NCBI GenBank assembly: GCA_016936135.1
Contig: JAFGPP010000089.1
Coordinates: 1 to 37,723 of the forward strand
Origin: Thermoplasmatota archaeon
GTDB taxonomy: Archaea > Thermoplasmatota > E2 > DHVEG-1
Reading direction: 5' to 3'
DNA length: 37,723 nucleotides
Shown: positions 15,184-29,595 of the stretch, piece after piece
How the letters are laid out: every line of letters starts with the position of its first letter
How positions within the stretch are numbered: position 1 is the first letter of the stretch
Notes under the pieces: model-generated
The model's database searches: none
What the model saw: only the letters and a program-made list of their open reading frames with translations
What the model was told of the DNA's origin: nothing
Made by a program: the position numbers and the translations under genes

Positions 15184-17399
<2,216 letters not shown>

Positions 17400-17480
17400 A
17401 CAAAAACTTACCTTAATCTTCTGAGGAACCATGTATCTAAAGTATTTATTAATATATTTTTTGAAAGAGAGATTTGTGTT

Positions 17481-20400
17481 TTATTTAACCTTTTGTTTTT
17501 CTGGTTTAATAATAACTGCATGTCCCAATCTACCATCTAGTTTAACAATTAGGGGAGAAGATAGACGAACGTGACTAACGAATCTACTTTTTTCTTTCAA
17601 AGTCTGTTTTTCAAGCCATGACCAATCTACATTACTTTCATTGGAATGCAATGGTATGTCTATATATCCTATACCTTTGCTTATCATATTCTGGAAGAAA
17701 TGAGTTCCTTGTGATGGCCTAATGTTGAAATTTTCTAATGCAGTCTCTACTATGACCCTCACACCAGAAATATGGCCCCAGCGAACAGGCACCCCTAACC
17801 ATCTATCTTGAGTTCCCCACCGCCCAGGTCCAATTAAAAGATAAGGAGACGAAGATGAGACTAATTTTTTGTTTATTGCTCCAATTTCTTCTGCCATCTC
17901 AACAGTTTTTGATGAATCAAAACCCTCAGAAGGTATGTAAACAATATCATATATACTATCTATCAACCCATTCCCTAAAGCCCTATCAGACCGTATAAAT
18001 ATTTGTTCTTGTTTTATTTTGTCCCAGTCAATATCATATTTTTCTTGCGATATGACAAATGGACGTATCTGTAAGATGGCAAATGTTGGCGGTTTTTTAT
18101 TTTCAGGATCGATATTTACTGCAAACTCAAATTCGACGGGACAACCCATTCCTTTTTGACCAATAGTTAAAATATCTTGAAGAATCGGAGCTAGAGGAAA
18201 AGCATCATATTTTAAAATACCAGCAAAGGTAATTATTGGAAAACCATCGGAGGACAAACCATCTCTAATCATTCCATCGTTTCTATCATAAGTGCTGGCA
18301 ACAAGATCAAGCGAACCATCCTTTAATATCTCTTTTATTGTCAGTTTTTTACAAGTATCAATCTGTGGCTCATTCAAATCTATATATTTATTTAATAAGT
18401 CTAAAAAATATAGTTCACGTTGTGAATTCTCAAGGGCGGATTCTGGTGTAGAAAAATCTGGATTAACATCAGGATAACGTGGTGAAAATCTAAAAACTTT
18501 CTCCCCACCCACAACTATTTTACCAAAACCAACAGCTATATTTGCTATTCCATCTTCAGAAGTCTGATGAGACACTGGATAGAAATTATAGGATTTTGCT
18601 ATCCCAGATAAAGTCGGATAAAATCTTCCATTGTATTTTTGTCCTACGAGTTCCTGGATTACTATAGCCATTTTCTCTTCTTCAATTTTTAATGACAAGG
18701 ATTCAGAGTAGACTCTTGGTTCCTTGAAAAAAACTGATGCATAAATAAGTTTTATAGCATGACATAGCTGCTGCAATCTTATATTATCATCTTCGTGATT
18801 ATTTGGTAATAGGTAAGTGTTATACATACCTGCAAAAGGATGGTTTTGGTAATCCTCAAGAAGACTAGACGACCTTACTGCCAAGGGTGTTTTGAAATGT
18901 TGTAATGTAACCGCAAGATTTTGTTTCAATTCATCACATATTTCACATTTGAGAAACTCTTTTGCAATTTCTTCATCTGAAAGTTGTTCATTTTTAAAAA
19001 ATTTATAGAGATTATTATCATTAACAAATCTATCAAACTCAAGTGTGCCAATCACAACCGAATTTGGAACTTTTACTATCGTATTTTTGTATTTTTCATC
19101 TAGCTTATATCTTGCAATAAGAGCTCGCATAAAAGCAAGACCTCGTCCTTTACCTCCAAGGGAATCTCCCCTAAGTCGAGTAAAAGAGGAATCGAATTCG
19201 AATTTTTGTCCTTCAAAATCAGTAATAATGCCCCTTTGTTTATTTCTGCGAGCATTGTTGAATACATTTATCAGATGCTCTCTCACTTCATTAAGATCTG
19301 AAAAATCTGATACTTTTTTTGGACGTAGCTCATTGGCAAGATTAAATTCGCATCTGGCCATAAGCCAGTTAGAAAAATGATTTCTCTGTGAATGATATAC
19401 AATTGATTCAAGTGGAACTTTTTGCAATACCTCCTCGAATTCTTTCATGTTTGATGCACGTGCTATTTCAGTTGTTTGAACGTGTTTATTTTCTAATTTT
19501 ATATCTTGTAAACTCTTTTTAAATTGTTTTTCAGATTTAGGTAAAAAAAATACAAAGTCCCCAAATCCAAGTTTATTTAATAGAAAATGCTGAAAATCTT
19601 GTACAAGTGTTGGTGAATTTTTGTTCAAAAAATAAGCGTCTAATTCATCGGCTTTTGTCTGATTTTTAATTTCTGAAGACTGCATGAGTAAAGGCAAATG
19701 TGGATGATTGTTACGAATCATTTGTAAAAACTCATGACCTGCTACTGGATTTACTTGCCCATTTTGTTTGAATGAAACATCAGAAAGTACACCTAAGATG
19801 AATTCTTTGTATTTTTTATAATAGTAATATGCTTCCTCATATGTTTCTGCGAGTAATATTTTTGGTCTAGCTCTCCTTCGCAAAAGTCGTTGCATCTCAT
19901 TTAAATCATCAGAAAGAGAGCGTCTTGTTTGTTGTACTACTTCAGTTAAAAGAATTGGGAGAAGTCTGGAATAATAATAGATTGAGTCCTCCACCATGAT
20001 AAGAACTCGAACATTTCCATTTACAGTATCATATTTTACATTAATACTGTCTTCAACATACTTTATAATAGCAAGAAAAATCGTTGGGTCTCCAGTCCAA
20101 GCAAAGATTTTATCTATACCACAAGCAGCAATATTTTCCTCCTCGAAAAGATTTATATCTGCTCTATCTGTTGCTAAAAGAATGACCGGTAAGTCTGGAT
20201 GAATTTTTTTAATTTTTTTGCCAAATTGAAAAGGATCCATTCCAATGTTTTTAGCCATTGTTATAACTAAGTCATATCTGCGTACCTGCAATTTCGATAA
20301 TGCCTTTTCTCCAGAGGAAACGCGTGTTACTCTTGGTGGTGAACTAAGTAAAAGGTGTTGATATTCTCCTATGACTAATTCAGCAATGAGCCCTTCCTCT

Positions 20401-20555
20401 TCAATAATAAAAGCATCATATAAACTTGATACAATAAGAATTTCTTTTACCCTATAGGGCATAAGAGAGTGATAGATTTGACTACGAAGTTCATATGTTT
20501 CTTCGAAATCCTCTTGAATTCTCAAACTATGAGAACCACTGTTACTTGACTTCAT
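17481..20555 (-). CDS. PEP-synthase/PPDK N-terminal (ATP-grasp) domain protein with two receiver-like domains
   Basis: 1024 aa. Receiver-like folds near KEILIVSS...YDLVITMAKNIGMD and VRVLIMVED...GVLSDVSF. PPDK-N-like core LRGDSLGGKGRGLAFMRAL, LAVRSSSLLEDYQNHPFAGMYNTYL. Novel-looking C-terminal PYLLIGPGRWGTQDRWLGVPVRWGHISG. Confidence 0.85.
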   Translation of the reverse strand: MKSSNSGSHSLRIQEDFEETYELRSQIYHSLMPYRVKEILIVSSLYDAFIIEEEGLIAELVIGEYQHLLLSSPPRVTRVSSGEKALSKLQVRRYDLVITMAKNIGMDPFQFGKKIKKIHPDLPVILLATDRADINLFEEENIAACGIDKIFAWTGDPTIFLAIIKYVEDSINVKYDTVNGNVRVLIMVEDSIYYYSRLLPILLTEVVQQTRRSLSDDLNEMQRLLRRRARPKILLAETYEEAYYYYKKYKEFILGVLSDVSFKQNGQVNPVAGHEFLQMIRNNHPHLPLLMQSSEIKNQTKADELDAYFLNKNSPTLVQDFQHFLLNKLGFGDFVFFLPKSEKQFKKSLQDIKLENKHVQTTEIARASNMKEFEEVLQKVPLESIVYHSQRNHFSNWLMARCEFNLANELRPKKVSDFSDLNEVREHLINVFNNARRNKQRGIITDFEGQKFEFDSSFTRLRGDSLGGKGRGLAFMRALIARYKLDEKYKNTIVKVPNSVVIGTLEFDRFVNDNNLYKFFKNEQLSDEEIAKEFLKCEICDELKQNLAVTLQHFKTPLAVRSSSLLEDYQNHPFAGMYNTYLLPNNHEDDNIRLQQLCHAIKLIYASVFFKEPRVYSESLSLKIEEEKMAIVIQELVGQKYNGRFYPTLSGIAKSYNFYPVSHQTSEDGIANIAVGFGKIVVGGEKVFRFSPRYPDVNPDFSTPESALENSQRELYFLDLLNKYIDLNEPQIDTCKKLTIKEILKDGSLDLVASTYDRNDGMIRDGLSSDGFPIITFAGILKYDAFPLAPILQDILTIGQKGMGCPVEFEFAVNIDPENKKPPTFAILQIRPFVISQEKYDIDWDKIKQEQIFIRSDRALGNGLIDSIYDIVYIPSEGFDSSKTVEMAEEIGAINKKLVSSSSPYLLIGPGRWGTQDRWLGVPVRWGHISGVRVIVETALENFNIRPSQGTHFFQNMISKGIGYIDIPLHSNESNVDWSWLEKQTLKEKSRFVSHVRLSSPLIVKLDGRLGHAVIIKPEKQKVK

Positions 20556-20664: not shown

Positions 20665-22002
20665 TTAAACTATACCTTGATCTAGCATAGCATCAGCGAC
20701 TTTAACAAAACCCGCTATATTTGCACCTTTTATGTAATCAATTTTTTCTTTTTGCACAAGTCCATATTTTACACAAGAATCATGTATGGTCTTCATAATG
20801 TGATGGAGTTGTTTGTCAATCTCTTCAGAGGTCCAACTGATTCTCATGCTATTCTGCGTCATTTCCAAACCAGAAACAGCTACGCCACCTGCATTTACTG
20901 CTTTACCTGGTGCAAAAAGTATTTTTTCTGTTGCAAGTTTTGCAGCACTAGCTGTACAACCCATATTGGAAACCTCTGCGATTAACATGCATCCCTTTTT
21001 AATCAAATTTTTTACATCGTTTTCATCCATTTCATTTTGTGTAGCACAAGGCATTGCTATATCACATTTTACTTCCCAGGGTCTTTTACCAGAGTAAAAA
21101 GGCACTTTATATTTCTTCGCGTAATCTTCAACACGATCATTATTTGATGCGCGCATTTCAAGTAAATAATCGATTTTTTCTCCTTTTACACCATCTTTGT
21201 CATAAATATATCCGTCAGGGCCGGATAATGTCACAACTTTTGCGCCTAGTTGATTGAGTTTTAACGCCGCGCCCCAAGCAACATTGCCGAAACCAGAAAG
21301 TGTGACAATTTTTCCCTTTAATGTTTCATTTTTGTTTTCTAGCATCTCTTGAACAAAATACACTGCACCATAACCTGTGGCCTCTGGTCGAATGAGACTT
21401 CCCCCCCAATTAATTCCCTTACCAGTTAAAACACCCGTAAACTCATTTCTTAGTTTCTTGTACATGCCAAAAAGATAACCAATTTCTCGTCCGCCTACAC
21501 CAATATCTCCTGCTGGAACATCAGTATTTGGACCAACATGTCGGAACAGTTCCATCATAAAGGATTGACAAAATCTCATTATCTCCATATCTGATTTTCC
21601 TCGAGCGTTAAAATCTGATCCGCCCTTTCCACCGCCCATAGGTAGACCAGTTAAACTATTTTTAAAAATCTGTTCAAATCCTAAGAATTTAAGAATACTT
21701 AACGTTACACTTGGATGGAACCTAAGCCCGCCCTTATATGGGCCTATTGCACTATTGAATTCAACACGATAACCACGATTTACCTGAATTTCTCCTTTGT
21801 CATCTACCCACGGGACCCGAAACATTATTGTACGTTCTGGTTCTACAATGCGTTCCAATATCTTTGCCTTTTTGTATTTAGGGTTTTTCTCTATATAAGG
21901 CATGATGCTTTCGACAACCTCTTGCACTGCTTGATGAAATTCCTTTTCACCAGGATTTCTTTCGATGACTTTATCCATGAACGCTTTTACGGTTTCTTCC
22001 AT
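20665..22002 (-). CDS. gdhA: Glutamate dehydrogenase (hexameric type, about 445 aa)
   Basis: GYRVEFNSAIGPYKGGLRFHPSVTLSILKFLGFEQIFKNSLTGLPMGGGKGGSDFNARGKSD; VTLSGFGNVAWGAALKLNQLGAKVVTLSG. Confidence 0.97.
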   Translation of the reverse strand: MEETVKAFMDKVIERNPGEKEFHQAVQEVVESIMPYIEKNPKYKKAKILERIVEPERTIMFRVPWVDDKGEIQVNRGYRVEFNSAIGPYKGGLRFHPSVTLSILKFLGFEQIFKNSLTGLPMGGGKGGSDFNARGKSDMEIMRFCQSFMMELFRHVGPNTDVPAGDIGVGGREIGYLFGMYKKLRNEFTGVLTGKGINWGGSLIRPEATGYGAVYFVQEMLENKNETLKGKIVTLSGFGNVAWGAALKLNQLGAKVVTLSGPDGYIYDKDGVKGEKIDYLLEMRASNNDRVEDYAKKYKVPFYSGKRPWEVKCDIAMPCATQNEMDENDVKNLIKKGCMLIAEVSNMGCTASAAKLATEKILFAPGKAVNAGGVAVSGLEMTQNSMRISWTSEEIDKQLHHIMKTIHDSCVKYGLVQKEKIDYIKGANIAGFVKVADAMLDQGIV

Positions 22003-22011
22003 ATATTATTC

Positions 22012-22105
22012 CCCTGATATATTCGTGGTCCGTATCGTACTCCATTATTAAAACTTTAGTATTAATCAGGGTGGACACGCCTGTCAGATGATTATTTATA
22101 TAATT
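22012..22105. promoter_or_regulatory. Divergent gdhA/nuoE-like control region with inverted repeats
   Basis: CCCTGAT (22012-22018) and ATCAGGG (22065-22071) inverted arms; GACA-cgcc-TGTC (22074-22085) just upstream of the TATA-like ATTTATATAA, which drives the + strand gene. Confidence 0.4.
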
Positions 22106-22139
22106 TAGGAGATTTATCGTAAGTTATTAAAATATATTA

Positions 22140-22640
22140 ATGATTCAAAACCCTACATCTCGGGGGAATTGCTTTATTGAAACTGCAGAAATCGATAAAA
22201 TACTAGAAAAACACGAATATAAAAAATCAGCCTTAATACCAATATTACAGGAAATACAGTCTAAGAATCGCTGGCTCCCCTGTGAAACTCTAAAATATGT
22301 TTCTGAGAAACTTGATATACCATTAATCGACGTCTATAGTTTAGCTACTTTTTACAAATCATTTAGTTTGAAACCGCGTGGAAAACATGTAATAACTGCT
22401 TGTTGTGGGACTGCTTGTCATGTTAGAGGAGGACCCAAGGTTTTACAAGAGATACAAAATCAGTTAAATATAGGAGTGGATGAAACAACTCCTGATAAAA
22501 AATTTACTCTCGAAACAGTACGTTGCCTCGGCGCCTGTGCTCTAGGTCCTTTAGTTGTTATTGATGGTAAATATCATGGACAAATGAATACCAAGAAAGT
22601 CGCATCTATATTGAAGAAATACTCGAAGAAAAATAAATGA
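22140..22640 (+). CDS. NuoE-like [2Fe-2S] thioredoxin-fold subunit
   Basis: LIPILQEIQSKNRWLPCETLKYVSEKLDIPLIDVYSLATFYKSFSLKPRGKHVITACCGTACHVRGGPKVLQEI...ETVRCLGACALGPLVVIDGKYHG. Confidence 0.94.
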   Translation: MIQNPTSRGNCFIETAEIDKILEKHEYKKSALIPILQEIQSKNRWLPCETLKYVSEKLDIPLIDVYSLATFYKSFSLKPRGKHVITACCGTACHVRGGPKVLQEIQNQLNIGVDETTPDKKFTLETVRCLGACALGPLVVIDGKYHGQMNTKKVASILKKYSKKNK

Positions 22641-22678
22641 TTGCAAAATTTTCTAATTAAAATATAAAGTGGTAGGAA

Positions 22679-25600
22679 ATGAAAAAAATACATAAAGCAG
22701 CAGATCTAAAACAAATCAAAGAGAACATTATCAAAAATAGTGGTAAAGGGAAAACACTAATAACTATTTGTGGGGGCACTGGATGTAATGCTTCTGGTTG
22801 CGAAAAAGTTATATCAGCATTTAGACGAGAAATTAAAAAACAAAGACTTAAAGATAACGTTGATATTAAAATCACAGGCTGTCATGGTTTTTGTGAAAAA
22901 GGACCCATTGTTGTTATTCACCCAAAAGGTATTTTTTATAAACAAGTAAAACCAAAGGATGTAAAGGACATATTAACTGAAACTATTGTAAAGGGAAAAA
23001 TTGTTGACAGATTGCTGTATATTGATCCTCTAACAGGTAAAAAAATTATCTATGAAAAAGACGTGCAGTTTTATAAGGGGCAAAAACGCATCGTGTTTGC
23101 TAATAATGGATTATTGGATCCATATAAAATTGAGGATTATTTCGCAATATGTGGTTATGAAGCAGCAGCGAAAGCTTTAACCAATATGAGACCCGAAAAA
23201 ATTATTGATGAAATTAAAAAATCTGGTTTAAGGGGCAGAGGAGGAGCCGGTTTTCCTGCTGGGTTAAAATGGGAATCGTGCAGAAAATCCAAGGGCACTA
23301 AGAAATACATTATTTGTAATGCTGATGAGGGCGATCCTGGAGCATATATGGATCGTAGCCTTATCGAGGGCAACCCATTCAGTATTCTTGAGGGAATGTT
23401 AATCGGTGCTTATGCAATAGGCGCAAACCTAGGAATCGTTTATGTTCGAGATGAATATCCAATTGCAGTTAAAACCATGAAAAATGCAATAGAACAGGCG
23501 CAGAAATATGGGTTACTTGGTAAAAACATTTTAGGATCAGATTTTGATTTTGATATGACTATAGTTAGGGGCGCTGGGGCTTTTGTCTGTGGAGAAGAAA
23601 CTGCCCTCATCGCCTCTGTAGAAGGAAAGAAGGGAGAACCTCGACAAAGGCCACCTTTTCCGACTCAAAAAGGATTATGGGGCAAACCAACTAATATAAA
23701 CAATGTAGAAACATGGGCAAACATTCCCTACATAATAAAAAAAGGATCGAAGTGGTTTGCAAGCATAGGTACTGAAAAAAGTAAAGGAACAAAAATTTTC
23801 TCTCTTGTTGGAAAGATTAATAATACAGGCCTTGTAGAAGTACCTATGGGAATTACCCTAAAAGAAATGATTTATAGCATTGGCGGAGGCATACCGGAGA
23901 ATAAGGCATTTAAGGCGGTACAAACCGGCGGACCATCTGGCGGATGCATACCAAAAGAATTACTGGAAACTCCAATTGATTATGAGAAACTCAAAGAAGC
24001 GGGTTGCATCATGGGCTCTGGCGGCATGGTGGTTATGGATGAAGATACCTGCATGGTGGATGTTGCCAGATATTTCCTTGAGTTCCTACAAGATGAATCT
24101 TGTGGAAAATGTTTGTCATGCCGTGAAGGAACAAAACGCATGGCAGAAATCATTACAGACATAACAAAAGGACAGGGAAAAGAAGGAGATATAGAACTTT
24201 TAACAGAGCTGGCTAAAGTTGTAAAAGATACTTCTATGTGCGGTCTTGGTCAAACCGCTGCAAACCCCGTATTATCGACAATAAAATATTTCCGAGATGA
24301 ATATGAGACCCATATAATAGATAGAAAATGCCCCGCCGGAGTTTGTCGTGATTTATACATTTCTCCATGCCAGAATGCGTGTCCCGCAGGCATGAACGCA
24401 CCGGGATATATTTCACTAATTGGTGAAGGTCGCTTAACAGAAGCTCTTGCACTTGCTCTTGACACTAATCCTTTCCCATCTGTATGTGGGCGGATTTGTG
24501 ATCATCAATGTATGTTTAAATGCCGCCGAAATCAGATTGACGAACCAGTCGCGATTAGATCTTTAAAAAGATTCATCGGAGATTATGAAGAAAATGGCAT
24601 AGAGTATCCGTCAATAGTTTATCCAAAAGAGATAATGCCATTTAAGGTTGCTATAGTTGGAGCAGGACCCGCTGGATTAAGCTGTGCATATTTCCTTGCT
24701 AGATTAGGTTACAAACCTACAGTTTTCGAAAAACTACCTGTTGCTGGAGGCATGATGGCGGTTGCCATCCCTGAATATCGTTTGCCAAAAAAGATCTTAC
24801 AAAGAGAAATAGACAACATAAAAAAAATTGGCGTCGATATTAGACTTAACACAGAAGTTGGAAAAGACATAACTATCTCCCAGCTTTGGTCGCAAGGATA
24901 TCAAGCATTTTTTATTGCTGTTGGAATGTATGGTGATAGGCGCCTTGGGATACCAGGCGAAAATTTAGAAAATGTGATACAGGCTGTCGATTTACTTGAA
25001 AATATTAATCTTGATAAGCCTGTTGTTTCCCCCGCAGGAAAAAAAGTTATTGTGATAGGTGGAGGAAATTCTGCAATCGATGCTGCAAGAACAATGCTAA
25101 GAATGGGTGCCAAGGAAGTAACGATACTTTATCGTAGGACCAGAAGAGAAATGCCTGCGTATGCCGAGGAAGTTGAAGCGGCAGAACATGAGGGTGTAAA
25201 GCTTAGATTCTTAATTGCACCTGAAAAAATATTTGGTGAAAAAGGCAAAGTGAAAAGCATCGAATGCATAAAAATGAAACCAGGTGATTTTGATAACGAG
25301 GGACGACAAAAGCCCGTTCCTATACAAAATAGTAATTTTTTCATTGATACAGATATAATTATTCCAGCCATTGGCGAATTTTCCGATGTATCTGGACTTT
25401 TTACAGGCCTTGATGTTGAAACTTATCCTGATGGTACTGTCAAAACAGATAAACATGGACGTACAAGTATACCAGGAATATTTTCTGGTGGCGACGTTAC
25501 ATCTGGTCCTGCTACCGTAATTAATGCTGTTGCCGCAGGTGAGCGGGCAGCAGTTACAATCGATCAATATTTTACTAAAGACAGGACAAGGAAATATTCT

Positions 25601-25840
25601 TGGAGGGAACATAAAAAAGTTGATACTTATTTTGATCCCGAAGCAGAACCAGTTAAATATGGAATGCAGAAACCAAAGGTTTTGCCACCCATTGATAGAA
25701 AAGGCAGTTTTGAAGAAGTGGAAATGTGTTACACAAAAGCTCTTGCCATAAAGGAAGCGAAAAGGTGCTTACGCTGCGACTTAGAAATAGAGTTGCAAGA
25801 AAAACTTCGTGAGGAAAAACCTTTAGAGGTGAAACGATGA
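22679..25840 (+). CDS. NuoF-like NADH/FMN subunit fused to GltD/NfnL-like FAD NAD(P)H oxidoreductase
   Basis: N-term Trx-like [2Fe-2S] (TICGGTGCNASGC...TGCHGFCEKGPIVVI); NuoF core (RGRGGAGFPAGLKWESC, CNADEGDPGAYMDRSLIEGNPF, GAGAFVCGEETALIASVEG, ESCGKCLSCREGT, SMCGLGQTAANPV); then CQNACPAGMNAPGYISLIGEGR...VCGRICDHQCMFKC...[22 protein letters not shown]...IGGGNSAIDAARTMLRMGA. Confidence 0.95.
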   Translation: MKKIHKAADLKQIKENIIKNSGKGKTLITICGGTGCNASGCEKVISAFRREIKKQRLKDNVDIKITGCHGFCEKGPIVVIHPKGIFYKQVKPKDVKDILTETIVKGKIVDRLLYIDPLTGKKIIYEKDVQFYKGQKRIVFANNGLLDPYKIEDYFAICGYEAAAKALTNMRPEKIIDEIKKSGLRGRGGAGFPAGLKWESCRKSKGTKKYIICNADEGDPGAYMDRSLIEGNPFSILEGMLIGAYAIGANLGIVYVRDEYPIAVKTMKNAIEQAQKYGLLGKNILGSDFDFDMTIVRGAGAFVCGEETALIASVEGKKGEPRQRPPFPTQKGLWGKPTNINNVETWANIPYIIKKGSKWFASIGTEKSKGTKIFSLVGKINNTGLVEVPMGITLKEMIYSIGGGIPENKAFKAVQTGGPSGGCIPKELLETPIDYEKLKEAGCIMGSGGMVVMDEDTCMVDVARYFLEFLQDESCGKCLSCREGTKRMAEIITDITKGQGKEGDIELLTELAKVVKDTSMCGLGQTAANPVLSTIKYFRDEYETHIIDRKCPAGVCRDLYISPCQNACPAGMNAPGYISLIGEGRLTEALALALDTNPFPSVCGRICDHQCMFKCRRNQIDEPVAIRSLKRFIGDYEENGIEYPSIVYPKEIMPFKVAIVGAGPAGLSCAYFLARLGYKPTVFEKLPVAGGMMAVAIPEYRLPKKILQREIDNIKKIGVDIRLNTEVGKDITISQLWSQGYQAFFIAVGMYGDRRLGIPGENLENVIQAVDLLENINLDKPVVSPAGKKVIVIGGGNSAIDAARTMLRMGAKEVTILYRRTRREMPAYAEEVEAAEHEGVKLRFLIAPEKIFGEKGKVKSIECIKMKPGDFDNEGRQKPVPIQNSNFFIDTDIIIPAIGEFSDVSGLFTGLDVETYPDGTVKTDKHGRTSIPGIFSGGDVTSGPATVINAVAAGERAAVTIDQYFTKDRTRKYSWREHKKVDTYFDPEAEPVKYGMQKPKVLPPIDRKGSFEEVEMCYTKALAIKEAKRCLRCDLEIELQEKLREEKPLEVKR

Positions 25841-26523
25841 TTGAATTAACGATAGATGGGTTACCTGTTCTGGTAGAGGAGGGTTCAACAATTCTTGATG
25901 CTGCTCGATTTTATGGTATTGATATTCCAACTCTTTGCCATAACGATGGTTTGACTCCGTACGGTGCTTGTCGCTTATGTGTCGTTGAAATAGGTAAAGG
26001 AGAAAATGCAAAGTTGGTGTCCTCATGTACTTATCCTGCGGAACCGGGCTTGGTGGTTAGAACAAATTCAAAGCGTGTCACAGAGGCACGTAAAGTACTT
26101 GTTGAGCTTTTAGTCGCCATGTGCCCATCATCTAAGACTGTTCAGGACCTTGCTTCAGCAATGGAGGTCAAAAAAGTTAGATTTAAAGTTGAACATAATG
26201 ACTGCATCCTATGTGGACTTTGTGTCCGAATGTGTGAAGAACAAATGATGGCAAAAGCAATCGGTTTTGTAAACCGTGGCAAAGATAGAAAGATCACAAC
26301 ACCGTTTGATATGAAATCAGATGTTTGTAGAACGTGTGGTGGTTGCATGTACATTTGTCCTGCGTGCGAACTCCGCTGTCAAGGACCAGATGCAGAAACG
26401 GATTTATGCAATGCTTGTCTAAATGTTCAACCTGTTTGTTTAAAAGAAGAGGATAATAAAATGTGCTTCCTAGGTACATGTGGATGGTGTTATGAAGAGC
26501 TAGGAAGGAAGAAAAAGAAGTAA
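25837..26523 (+). CDS. NuoG-N/HoxU-like ferredoxin subunit with extra Cys-rich tail
   Basis: [2Fe-2S] CHNDGLTPYGACRLCVVEI...CTYP; two [4Fe-4S] CILCGLCVRMCEE and CRTCGGCMYICPAC; Cys-rich C-terminus. Confidence 0.9.
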   Translation: MIELTIDGLPVLVEEGSTILDAARFYGIDIPTLCHNDGLTPYGACRLCVVEIGKGENAKLVSSCTYPAEPGLVVRTNSKRVTEARKVLVELLVAMCPSSKTVQDLASAMEVKKVRFKVEHNDCILCGLCVRMCEEQMMAKAIGFVNRGKDRKITTPFDMKSDVCRTCGGCMYICPACELRCQGPDAETDLCNACLNVQPVCLKEEDNKMCFLGTCGWCYEELGRKKKK

Positions 26524-26551
26524 GAATAATTTGAAAAAATGGGGGAAAAAT

Positions 26552-28132
26552 ATGTCGTTAACAAAAATAAATGCATCTGCAGCAACGCTTAGCAAAAATA
26601 GAACCGAGGGAGCCATTAATACACTTAGTGGAATGTGTGCCACTTGTGTTGATGGTTGCATAGGGATGTGTGAAATAGGAAAATCGGCCTATAGAGGCCA
26701 TGAGGTAATATATCCTCAACCTTTTGGTATTATCACTTCAGCATGCGAAAAGATTTACCCGGTTGACCTTTCCCATTTCACTATTCTTGGAGGAGTTGTT
26801 GGTGCTTGGGGTATTGAAACAGATAGTGACCGTGCAATATTTTCAAACGTCAATCTTGAAAGAACTGTTTGCAAAAATAATCCAATCAAGGTTAAAATGC
26901 CGATGATCATTCCTGGCCTTGGCTCAACTGCCATCGCAAAGAACAATTGGGAAGGGCTTGCTATTGGTGCTGCTTTATCAGGTATTCCCCTTACTATCGG
27001 TGAAAACGTCTGTGGCATGGATCCAGATTCAGAATTTGTTAAAGGAAAAGTGAAACACTCCCCTGATCTAGAATGGAGAGTAAATCTTTATAAAAAATGG
27101 CAGCGTGATGGCTATGGTGCAATTATTGTTCAGGCAAATGTAGAGGATACAAATCTAGGCGTTCATGAATATGCTATCTCTGATTTAGATGTAGATGCAG
27201 TGGAATTGAAGTGGGGGCAAGGAGCAAAAAACATTGGTGGAGAAGTAAAAATTAAGGATTTGAAACGTGCCCAGGAATTGAAGAAAAGAGGATATGTTGT
27301 TCTCCCTGACCCAACTGATAAGAACATTATTGCAGCTTTTGAAAAAGGAAGTTTTCGGGAATTTGAGAGGCATTCTAGAGTAGGAATGGTTTCTGAGGTG
27401 GGATTTTTAAAACGTGTGAAAGAACTACGTGATTATGGCGCAAAACGAGTTTTCCTTAAGACGGGGGCCTATCGACCCGTCGCACTTGCTCAAGCAGTAA
27501 AATATGCATCGAAAGCAAAAATTGATCTTTTAACTGTTGATGCTGCTGGTGGAGGAACTGGTATGAGTCCCTGGCGGATGATGAATGAGTGGGGAGTTCC
27601 TCAAGTTGAGCTACATTCTATGCTTTACAACTATGTTGATAAACTTGCTAAGAAGGGCGAATATGTACCAGATATTGCTATAGCTGGGGGATTTACATTT
27701 GAAGATCAGATACTTAAGGGACTTGCACTAGGGGCACCATACTTCAAACTCGTTGGAATGGCTCGTGGACCATTGGCTGCAGCAATGGTTGGAAAAACCA
27801 TTGGCAAAAAAATTAATGAATCGCAAGTGCCAGTATACATAGAAAGGTTTGGAACTACTGCTGAGGAGATTTTTGTTACAGCACCTAATCTAAAACAAAA
27901 ATTTGGAAAAGATTTTGAAAAAATTCCAACAGGTGCTATGGGGTTGTACACATACATGGAAAGATTACATCAGGGGCTAAGACAGATCATGGCAGGATGC
28001 AGAAAATTTACTTTGGATTACATATCAAGAGACGATATTGCTGCTCTTACAAAGGAGGCATCAGATATCAGTACTATTCCATATATCACAGATGTTGACT
28101 CTAAAGAAGTAGGTAAAATATTAAGCAGCTAA
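26552..28132 (+). CDS. Glutamate-synthase-like FMN-binding domain protein (GltS/GltB domain 2 family)
   Basis: IIPGLGSTAIAKNNWEGLAIGAALSGIPLTIGENVCGMDP, VELKWGQGAKNIGGEV, LTVDAAGGGTGMSPWRMMNEWG, APYFKLVGMARGPLAAAMVG. ATG 26552 follows GGGGG; the track ORF starts at TTG 26531. Confidence 0.88.
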   Translation: MSLTKINASAATLSKNRTEGAINTLSGMCATCVDGCIGMCEIGKSAYRGHEVIYPQPFGIITSACEKIYPVDLSHFTILGGVVGAWGIETDSDRAIFSNVNLERTVCKNNPIKVKMPMIIPGLGSTAIAKNNWEGLAIGAALSGIPLTIGENVCGMDPDSEFVKGKVKHSPDLEWRVNLYKKWQRDGYGAIIVQANVEDTNLGVHEYAISDLDVDAVELKWGQGAKNIGGEVKIKDLKRAQELKKRGYVVLPDPTDKNIIAAFEKGSFREFERHSRVGMVSEVGFLKRVKELRDYGAKRVFLKTGAYRPVALAQAVKYASKAKIDLLTVDAAGGGTGMSPWRMMNEWGVPQVELHSMLYNYVDKLAKKGEYVPDIAIAGGFTFEDQILKGLALGAPYFKLVGMARGPLAAAMVGKTIGKKINESQVPVYIERFGTTAEEIFVTAPNLKQKFGKDFEKIPTGAMGLYTYMERLHQGLRQIMAGCRKFTLDYISRDDIAALTKEASDISTIPYITDVDSKEVGKILSS

Positions 28133-28239
28133 CAAAAAATTTCATTAATTTCTTTTTTCTATTTTTTTAAAGATTAAGTTTTCGATAATTTAGTAGTTTT
28201 TAATAAATAAAAAAGAATACCTGATTTTGGGGAAAGTAA

Positions 28240-29595
28240 TTGGAGACTAGTCTATTGACAGAGAAGAGCGTTTATTCTAAAGAGGAGGTTTTAAATCTAA
28301 CGGAAAAAGAAAATATTTTATTTATTAGACTGCAATTTGTTGATATTTTGGGCTTTCCAAAAAATATCGTAATTCCCTCAAGCAGATTTGAAGAGGCGCT
28401 TGATGAAGGCATGCCGTTTGATGCTTCCTCGATTGCAGGATACGCAACCATTGAAGAATCCGATAAAATTGCAATGCCTGACCCAAATAGTTATGTTATA
28501 TTGCCTGATTGTATTGAATCTAGAAAAACTGCAAAAATAAATTGTGATATTTATGAACCAAATGGAGAGCGTTTTACTGGAGATACAAAGTATGCATTGG
28601 AAAAAATTGTAAACAAATCAAGGGAATTGGGTTATACATTCAATACGGGACCCGAATGTGAATTTTTTTTATTCAAAAAAAACGGTGAACAAGCGACACT
28701 GATTCCAAATGATTCGGCCGGTTACTTTGATTTATCGCATCGAGATCTTGCAGAAGGCGTTAGAGCTGAGATATCTCTTGCAATGGAACAAATGGGTATA
28801 AAAACTTATACCCTTCATCACGAAGTTGCTGGTGGACAACATGAGATTAATTTTAGATATGACGATGCTTTAACAACAGCAGATAGGGTTATTTCTTTAA
28901 AATATGTTACAAAAGTGATTGCCACGAAACATAATCTTCATGCTTCATTTATGCCAAAGCCGATTTATGGGGCCAGTGGCTCAGGAATGCATACTCATCT
29001 TTCACTATTTACTAAAAGTGGAAATAACGCCTTCTTTGACCCAGACGGGCAGCATCAACTGAGCAAAATTGCTGAGCAGTTTATTGCTGGAATTTTAAAA
29101 TACATCAAAGAGATAACCTTAATCTTAAATCCGACTGTCAATTCATATAAAAGATTGGTACCTGGTTATGAAGCACCCACTTATATTTCTTGGGCAAATA
29201 GAAATAGAAGTGCTTTGATAAGAATTCCATCAAGAAAAGGAATGAGTGCAAGATGTGAACTAAGAAGTCCCGATCTTTCTGGTAACCCTTATTTGCAGTT
29301 TGCAGTTATGCTTGCAGCAGGCCTAAGAGGCATAAAAGAAAAGCTAGTTCCGCCCAGACCCGTCGAGAAAAATATTTATTCATTAAACGAACGCGAAAGA
29401 AAGCAATATGGTATCGAAAATTTACCGGATAGTCTTGGCCACGCACTGGCTCTAGCTAAACAAAGCGACATGCTAAGAACCGTTATTGGAGACCACATTT
29501 TTGAGAATCTTATTCATGTTAAAACAGAAGAGTGGAGCAAATATCGAACGCGAGTTTCAAAATGGGAAATTGAACACTATTTGCCGATATTGTAA
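28240..29595 (+). CDS. glnA: Glutamine synthetase type I
   Basis: VDILGFPKNIVIPSSRFEEALDEGMPFDASSIAGYATIEESD; GPECEFFLFKK; HHEVAGGQHEINFRY; SGSGMHTHLSLF; NPTVNSYKRLVPGYEAPTYISWANRNRSALIRIP. TTG start. Confidence 0.97.
   Translation: METSLLTEKSVYSKEEVLNLTEKENILFIRLQFVDILGFPKNIVIPSSRFEEALDEGMPFDASSIAGYATIEESDKIAMPDPNSYVILPDCIESRKTAKINCDIYEPNGERFTGDTKYALEKIVNKSRELGYTFNTGPECEFFLFKKNGEQATLIPNDSAGYFDLSHRDLAEGVRAEISLAMEQMGIKTYTLHHEVAGGQHEINFRYDDALTTADRVISLKYVTKVIATKHNLHASFMPKPIYGASGSGMHTHLSLFTKSGNNAFFDPDGQHQLSKIAEQFIAGILKYIKEITLILNPTVNSYKRLVPGYEAPTYISWANRNRSALIRIPSRKGMSARCELRSPDLSGNPYLQFAVMLAAGLRGIKEKLVPPRPVEKNIYSLNERERKQYGIENLPDSLGHALALAKQSDMLRTVIGDHIFENLIHVKTEEWSKYRTRVSKWEIEHYLPIL

Follow-up and report, generated by a model that had tools for sequence, protein, structure and literature searches.

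A receiver-linked protein with a PEP-synthase-type ATP-grasp core, encoded beside glutamate dehydrogenase in archaea and Bacteroidota, is a candidate phosphotransferase

The locus and the encoded protein

The window, the whole stretch of DNA analyzed here (37,723 nucleotides), comes from a Thermoplasmatota-type archaeal assembly of 1.7 Mb that is 86% complete. On the minus strand, an ORF with an ATG start and a product of 1024 aa lies between gdhA and an nfn/gltD-like gene pair. It is a real gene rather than a chance reading frame, because it is conserved across Thermoplasmatota and Bacteroidales. The features of the gene and its neighbors, all on the minus strand, are as follows.

15184-17432, minus strand: nfn/gltDH-like flavoprotein pair, downstream; a neighbor only in the closest relatives and a small number of other loci
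17481-20555, minus strand: whole ORF, degenerate receiver, receiver, linker, ATP-grasp core and C-terminal domain (from the ORF call, Pfam and orthologs)
17484-18032, minus strand: C-terminal domain, aa 842-1024; no Pfam family; GPGRWG and SQGTHFF motifs; possibly a divergent swivelling domain
17700-17702, minus strand: codon of His952, invariant in 117/117 relatives and at a predicted helix start; candidate catalytic or phospho-accepting residue
18033-19166, minus strand: PPDK_N/PEP-synthase type ATP-grasp core, aa 464-841, with K469, R561, E567, D568, E810 and Q829
19185-19481, minus strand: linker, aa 359-457, with a weak DUF5752 match (E 1.6e-6 for the protein)
19566-20012, minus strand: receiver 2, intact, aa about 182-330, with E189, D190, D259, S293 and K312
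19779-19781, minus strand: codon of D259, predicted phosphoacceptor of receiver 2
20046-20450, minus strand: receiver 1, degenerate, aa about 36-170, with T99 in place of Asp and conserved Y46-D47 and W153
20665-22002, minus strand: glutamate dehydrogenase (GDH; gdhA), probable partner, 110 bp upstream of the window gene

Positions 20665-29595 of the window form a compact nitrogen-assimilation set consisting of GDH, NuoE/NuoF-like and ferredoxin-type subunits, a glutamate-synthase-region protein and glutamine synthetase.

The family is large and already widely annotated, under the sole name “PEP/pyruvate-binding domain-containing protein”; what is new is the domain combination, the gene context and the role proposed below. 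No function assigned to the family was found in family libraries or in the literature, and the literature search returned no text on DUF5752.

The initial annotation, made from the sequence, described two receiver-like domains, the first with Thr where the phosphoacceptor Asp is expected and the second with the Asp kept. Pfam agrees, with Response_reg (E 8.5e-8) matching in two stretches. The phosphoacceptor position of receiver 1 is T99, and T, I, L or C are most frequent there among the relatives. Receiver 2 carries the response-regulator set of acidic pair, phosphoacceptor Asp, Ser/Thr and Lys: among the 98 relatives having the receiver region, the acidic pair is conserved in 95/98 (E189) and 92/98 (D190), D259 in 98/98, S293 in 97/98, and K312 in 95/98. 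In its full set of phosphorylation residues, receiver 2 is like two-component response regulators, whereas the degenerate receiver 1 and the output, an ATP-grasp enzyme instead of a DNA-binding or cyclase domain, set the protein apart from them. Eight HATPase_c matches occur in the host genome, none of them paired with the window gene.

The PPDK/PEP-synthase ATP-binding core, also recognized earlier, was matched by PPDK_N (E 1e-36) and keeps its ATP-site residues, with K469, R561, S562, E567, D568, E810, and Q829 showing little or no variation across 117 relatives, among them the nucleotidyltransferase-bearing paralog and minimal forms of 578 aa. An hhalign comparison of the core with the host genome's own PEP synthase, the genuine enzyme encoded at a separate site on contig 26, gave a probability of 99.5% over 326 columns. 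Like PEP synthase and PPDK (PpsA, PpdK), the window protein has the PPDK_N core with the ATP-site residues retained; unlike them, it has two N-terminal receivers and another C-terminal domain, and it lacks the PEP/pyruvate TIM barrel and a recognizable PEP-utilizers His domain. Pfam matched neither PEP-utilizers (PF00391) nor PEP-utilizers_C in the protein, there was no match to the PEP/pyruvate-binding TIM barrel, and the chain stops after a C-terminal domain of 183 aa. The absence of a barrel had been noted from the start, and a full PEP synthase architecture, which would have spoken against a separate function, was not found.

The same ATP-grasp core is re-used for other substrates in rifamycin phosphotransferase, the prodigiosin ligase PigC, and other PPDK_N enzymes. 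The window protein might likewise be a metabolic dikinase resembling PEP synthase, with a C-terminal domain that binds a small substrate, for example one derived from glutamate or 2-oxoglutarate, for phosphorylation, much as rifamycin phosphotransferase acts on its drug. An intact ATP site in the PPDK_N core and the occurrence of this core in metabolite-modifying enzymes are in keeping with such an activity, but we consider it unlikely, as no second substrate domain was recognized and the two receivers and the gene context favor regulation. The NCBIfam models of PEP synthases, of PigC, and of rifamycin phosphotransferase match only in part and far below threshold; for rifamycin phosphotransferase, PigC, and similar enzymes, only ~100-150 residues match, with 26-50 bits against cut-offs near 1000, and the rifamycin phosphotransferase models cover the ATP-grasp part only.

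The C-terminal domain

A block near the C-terminus had been singled out as distinctive, and conservation bears this out. The GPGRWG motif is present, and its G909, P910, G911, and R912, together with G921, E937, G950, H952, F953, and Y964, are invariant in 117/117 relatives. Residues 842-1024 had no Pfam match even at an E-value of 10, PF00391 included, and a PDB sequence search with the domain returned chance matches only. A PF00391 scan of the host genome identified only PEP synthase and an enzyme-I-like protein. Homology of the domain to PEP-utilizers was tried with hhalign against a narrow and a slightly wider set of His domains, with negative results for both.

An AlphaFold2 model of the C-terminal domain alone, built from six sequences, reached a pLDDT of 67 and a pTM of 0.70, and in this model the helix of model residues 111-119 begins beside His952 (model residue 112). 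A full-length model from four sequences had a mean pLDDT of 37 and was set aside. Structure prediction followed by Foldseek, the check suggested in the initial annotation, thus yielded a model of the domain and a weak match, but no confident fold match: the hit of highest probability was 7cnr_B of aconitase X (probability 0.89, E 6.9e-3, TM 0.33/0.42), which we take to be the small swivelling beta/beta/alpha subunit of that enzyme. The swivelling beta/beta/alpha fold is the general fold of the PPDK phospho-His domain. By eye, the order of strands and motifs is as in the PEP synthase His domain, with His952 at the place of the catalytic His.

The strand order, the position of His952, and the weak fold match would fit a highly divergent, cryptic phospho-His swivelling domain, a reading to which profile-profile comparison lends no support. 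The earlier statement that the protein has no such domain is correct as far as sequence searches go, but an invariant His952 at a helix start and a fold weakly resembling a swivelling domain leave room for a cryptic one.

Distribution of the family and its glutamate dehydrogenase neighbors

Some match to the window protein occurs in 149 of 390 Thermoplasmatota genomes when bare PEP synthases are counted in, and about 70 of the 390 have full or near-full family members. In the Bacteroidales sample, 132/149 genomes match, and all but two of these hold full-length members of about 1000 or 1160 aa, frequently as tandem copies. The family is much rarer in the sample of the class Bacteroidia. No relative of the window protein was found on viral contigs. 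Two Bacteroidota clades fall among archaeal clades in a tree of the core (quick method, midpoint root), which suggests at least two inter-domain transfers, or great age with losses.

Among 66 loci from archaea and Bacteroidota in which both flanks of the family gene exceed 3 kb, 36 have GDH within 3 kb of it. This count is descriptive and does not serve as a test, since clear flanks were one ground for choosing the loci and the loci lack phylogenetic independence. Within Bacteroidales, coordinates of the matches listed place GDH within 3 kb in at least 29 of 106 genomes, compared with about 0.7 expected by random placement. GDH-adjacent loci are spread over several deep clades of the tree. The genomic association of the family with GDH exceeds chance.

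The arrangement of the two genes changes between loci. They are co-directional with GDH upstream in the window, L005, L132, L133, and L137 and with GDH downstream in L129; convergent in L053, L115, L116, and L124; divergent in L007, L114, L117, L121, L123, and L130; and divergent with two or three genes intervening in L054, L143-L146, L149, and L150. In Parabacteroides distasonis, gdhA is divergent from the gene of a “PEP/pyruvate-binding domain-containing protein”, on whose other side lies another GDH, and in Phocaeicola massiliensis, the family gene is flanked by GDH genes on both sides. The GDH neighbors belong to two subfamilies, GDH-I and GDH-II, the latter lying beside another paralog group, while neighbors other than GDH differ from locus to locus. 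The nfn pair was set aside as a functional partner, as most GDH-bearing loci are without it.

A GDH-II operon is repeated in archaea and comprises GDH-II, a receiver-type or short paralog, a nucleotidyltransferase paralog, and a convergent calcineurin-like phosphoesterase gene 0-13 bp away. The nucleotidyltransferase paralog (L042:8563-11694, with similar ones in L039, L040, L041, L044, L050, L051, L056, and L057) has 1040-1087 aa, the PPDK_N core, the GPGRWG/HFF domain, and an extra C-terminal nucleotidyltransferase (NTP_transf_2 in the one scanned), and it is usually located within this operon. The phosphoesterase (“SDLHG”; L042:11703-12545, L112:10011-10868, and equivalents) adjoins it, being convergent in archaea and placed between two family members in one Bacteroidota locus.

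A phylogenetic profile with gdhA had been suggested as a check; almost every genome sampled carries GDH, which leaves such a profile weak on its own. Most Bacteroidales without the family gene and many Thermoplasmatota retain GDH, and a few genomes have the family gene but no GDH-I match, e.g., G596, G632, and G655, and G356 and G302. What does recur, and in two domains of life, is the GDH gene neighborhood.

In 1996, Baggio and Morrison reportedly described one or more trans-acting genes downstream of gdhA that affect GdhA activity in Bacteroides thetaiotaomicron, and GdhA activity in Escherichia coli is said to have needed a 3-kb downstream segment. One locus of a Bacteroides-type genome (L163, genome G734) has the order GDH-A, catalase, family gene (3.0 kb), GDH-B. 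Members of the genus Bacteroides were chosen by means of a B. thetaiotaomicron GdhA sequence, which we take as a guide to the genus and not as proof of species. BT_1970 and BT_1973 are presumably the two GDH genes of B. thetaiotaomicron. BT_1971 is a catalase (PMC4595636, PMC12596196). With the catalase at BT_1971, the counterpart of the window gene should be BT_1972, provided that B. thetaiotaomicron has the gene order of L163. The family gene may therefore be regarded as a candidate for the 1996 factor: in Bacteroides-type genomes it adjoins GDH genes or lies between them, and the trans-acting gene(s) reportedly lie downstream of gdhA. The identity of the two is a proposal.

The GDH neighborhood could also result from shared nitrogen regulation and not from direct action on GDH. 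The family would then be a broader nitrogen or energy regulator, in which a receiver-controlled phosphotransferase acts on another partner (PII-like, PTS-like, or another protein) or makes a small-molecule signal, and GDH proximity reflects a shared regulon. Nearly half of the examined loci have no GDH within 3 kb, which is easier to understand on this basis, as are the genomes having the family gene but no GDH-I match, the tandem paralogs in Bacteroidales, and the minimal 578-aa forms without receivers from other Thermoplasmatota families, whose retrieved flanks contain no GDH. However, GDH recurs as a neighbor in changing orientation and as two types while other neighbors vary, and a trans-acting gene beside gdhA was reported in 1996. 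We regard the broader role as possible but somewhat doubtful.

A proposed role in the control of glutamate dehydrogenase

Our preferred reading, with a probability of about 0.45, is that the window protein is a response-regulator-gated ATP-grasp phosphotransferase targeting GDH. The architecture, the conserved residues, the spread of the family, and the GDH association are the established part of this model. A nitrogen or redox signal would lead to phosphorylation of D259 in receiver 2, as its intact residues suggest, and phospho-D259 would release the PPDK-type core, which is predicted to bind ATP from its fully conserved ATP-site residues. The core would then transfer phosphate, possibly via His952, to a partner protein and so alter its activity; gene context and the 1996 Bacteroides report suggest that this partner is most probably the GDH encoded next to it. 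A partner protein is the favored acceptor because there is no PEP/pyruvate barrel. In the GDH-II operons of related archaea, the nucleotidyltransferase paralog and the calcineurin-like phosphoesterase could modify or reverse the change in GDH. The chemistry, the direction of the effect (activation or inhibition), and the target site are putative. The GDH columns in which linked and unlinked enzymes differ (E187, G366, Y423) revealed no obvious phosphate acceptor, and these differences are confounded by ancestry.

The initial annotation had anticipated a signal-dependent phosphotransferase acting on a partner, and the intact receiver, the ATP-grasp residues, and the missing barrel support this. 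GDH is the most likely partner, but nfn is not a general signal, being common to some loci only. AceK acts on isocitrate dehydrogenase, and GlnE and GlnD belong to the glutamine synthetase system. The window protein would resemble these in modifying, under the control of a signal, an enzyme central to nitrogen or carbon metabolism; no sequence kinship is claimed, and the modification is conjectural.

GDH might also be activated through binding, without phosphotransfer, by a non-catalytic activator or chaperone whose ATP-grasp core serves as an ATP sensor. This would suit the need for a second gene for GDH activity reportedly described by Baggio and Morrison, but the full conservation of the ATP-grasp residues, R912, E937, and His952 is more typical of an enzyme and makes such a role very unlikely.

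In gut Bacteroides, GDH is one of the main routes by which ammonia is assimilated, and a gene of this family, with no assigned function, is present in about 130/149 sampled Bacteroidales genomes and many archaea. If the GDH-directed phosphotransferase model is true, nitrogen control gains a new mechanism and the PEP-synthase ATP-grasp core a new use, and the trans-acting gene of the 1996 GdhA report would have a concrete candidate. A bolder extension, which we think doubtful, is a new signalling class common to archaea and Bacteroidota, in which protein kinases derived from PEP synthase, gated by a receiver and equipped with a cryptic phospho-His domain, reversibly phosphorylate GDH, accompanied by a nucleotidyltransferase paralog and a dedicated phosphoesterase.

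Other N-termini occur in and around the family. A distant member of 872 aa from another Thermoplasmatota family (L048:6561-9176, genome G213) has an unrecognized N-terminus that resembles a KaiC/RecA-type domain (“TGLPGLDEILNGVILGDNVVY”). In Bacteroidota, a sensor-like N-terminus, “ELNCLY...PPAWQYP” (L112:9173-10021; L113:4664-5791; L112:5714-9160), is fused to a separate nucleotidyltransferase and to a CRP-like regulator, and the family members of 1160 aa open with a stretch related to it.
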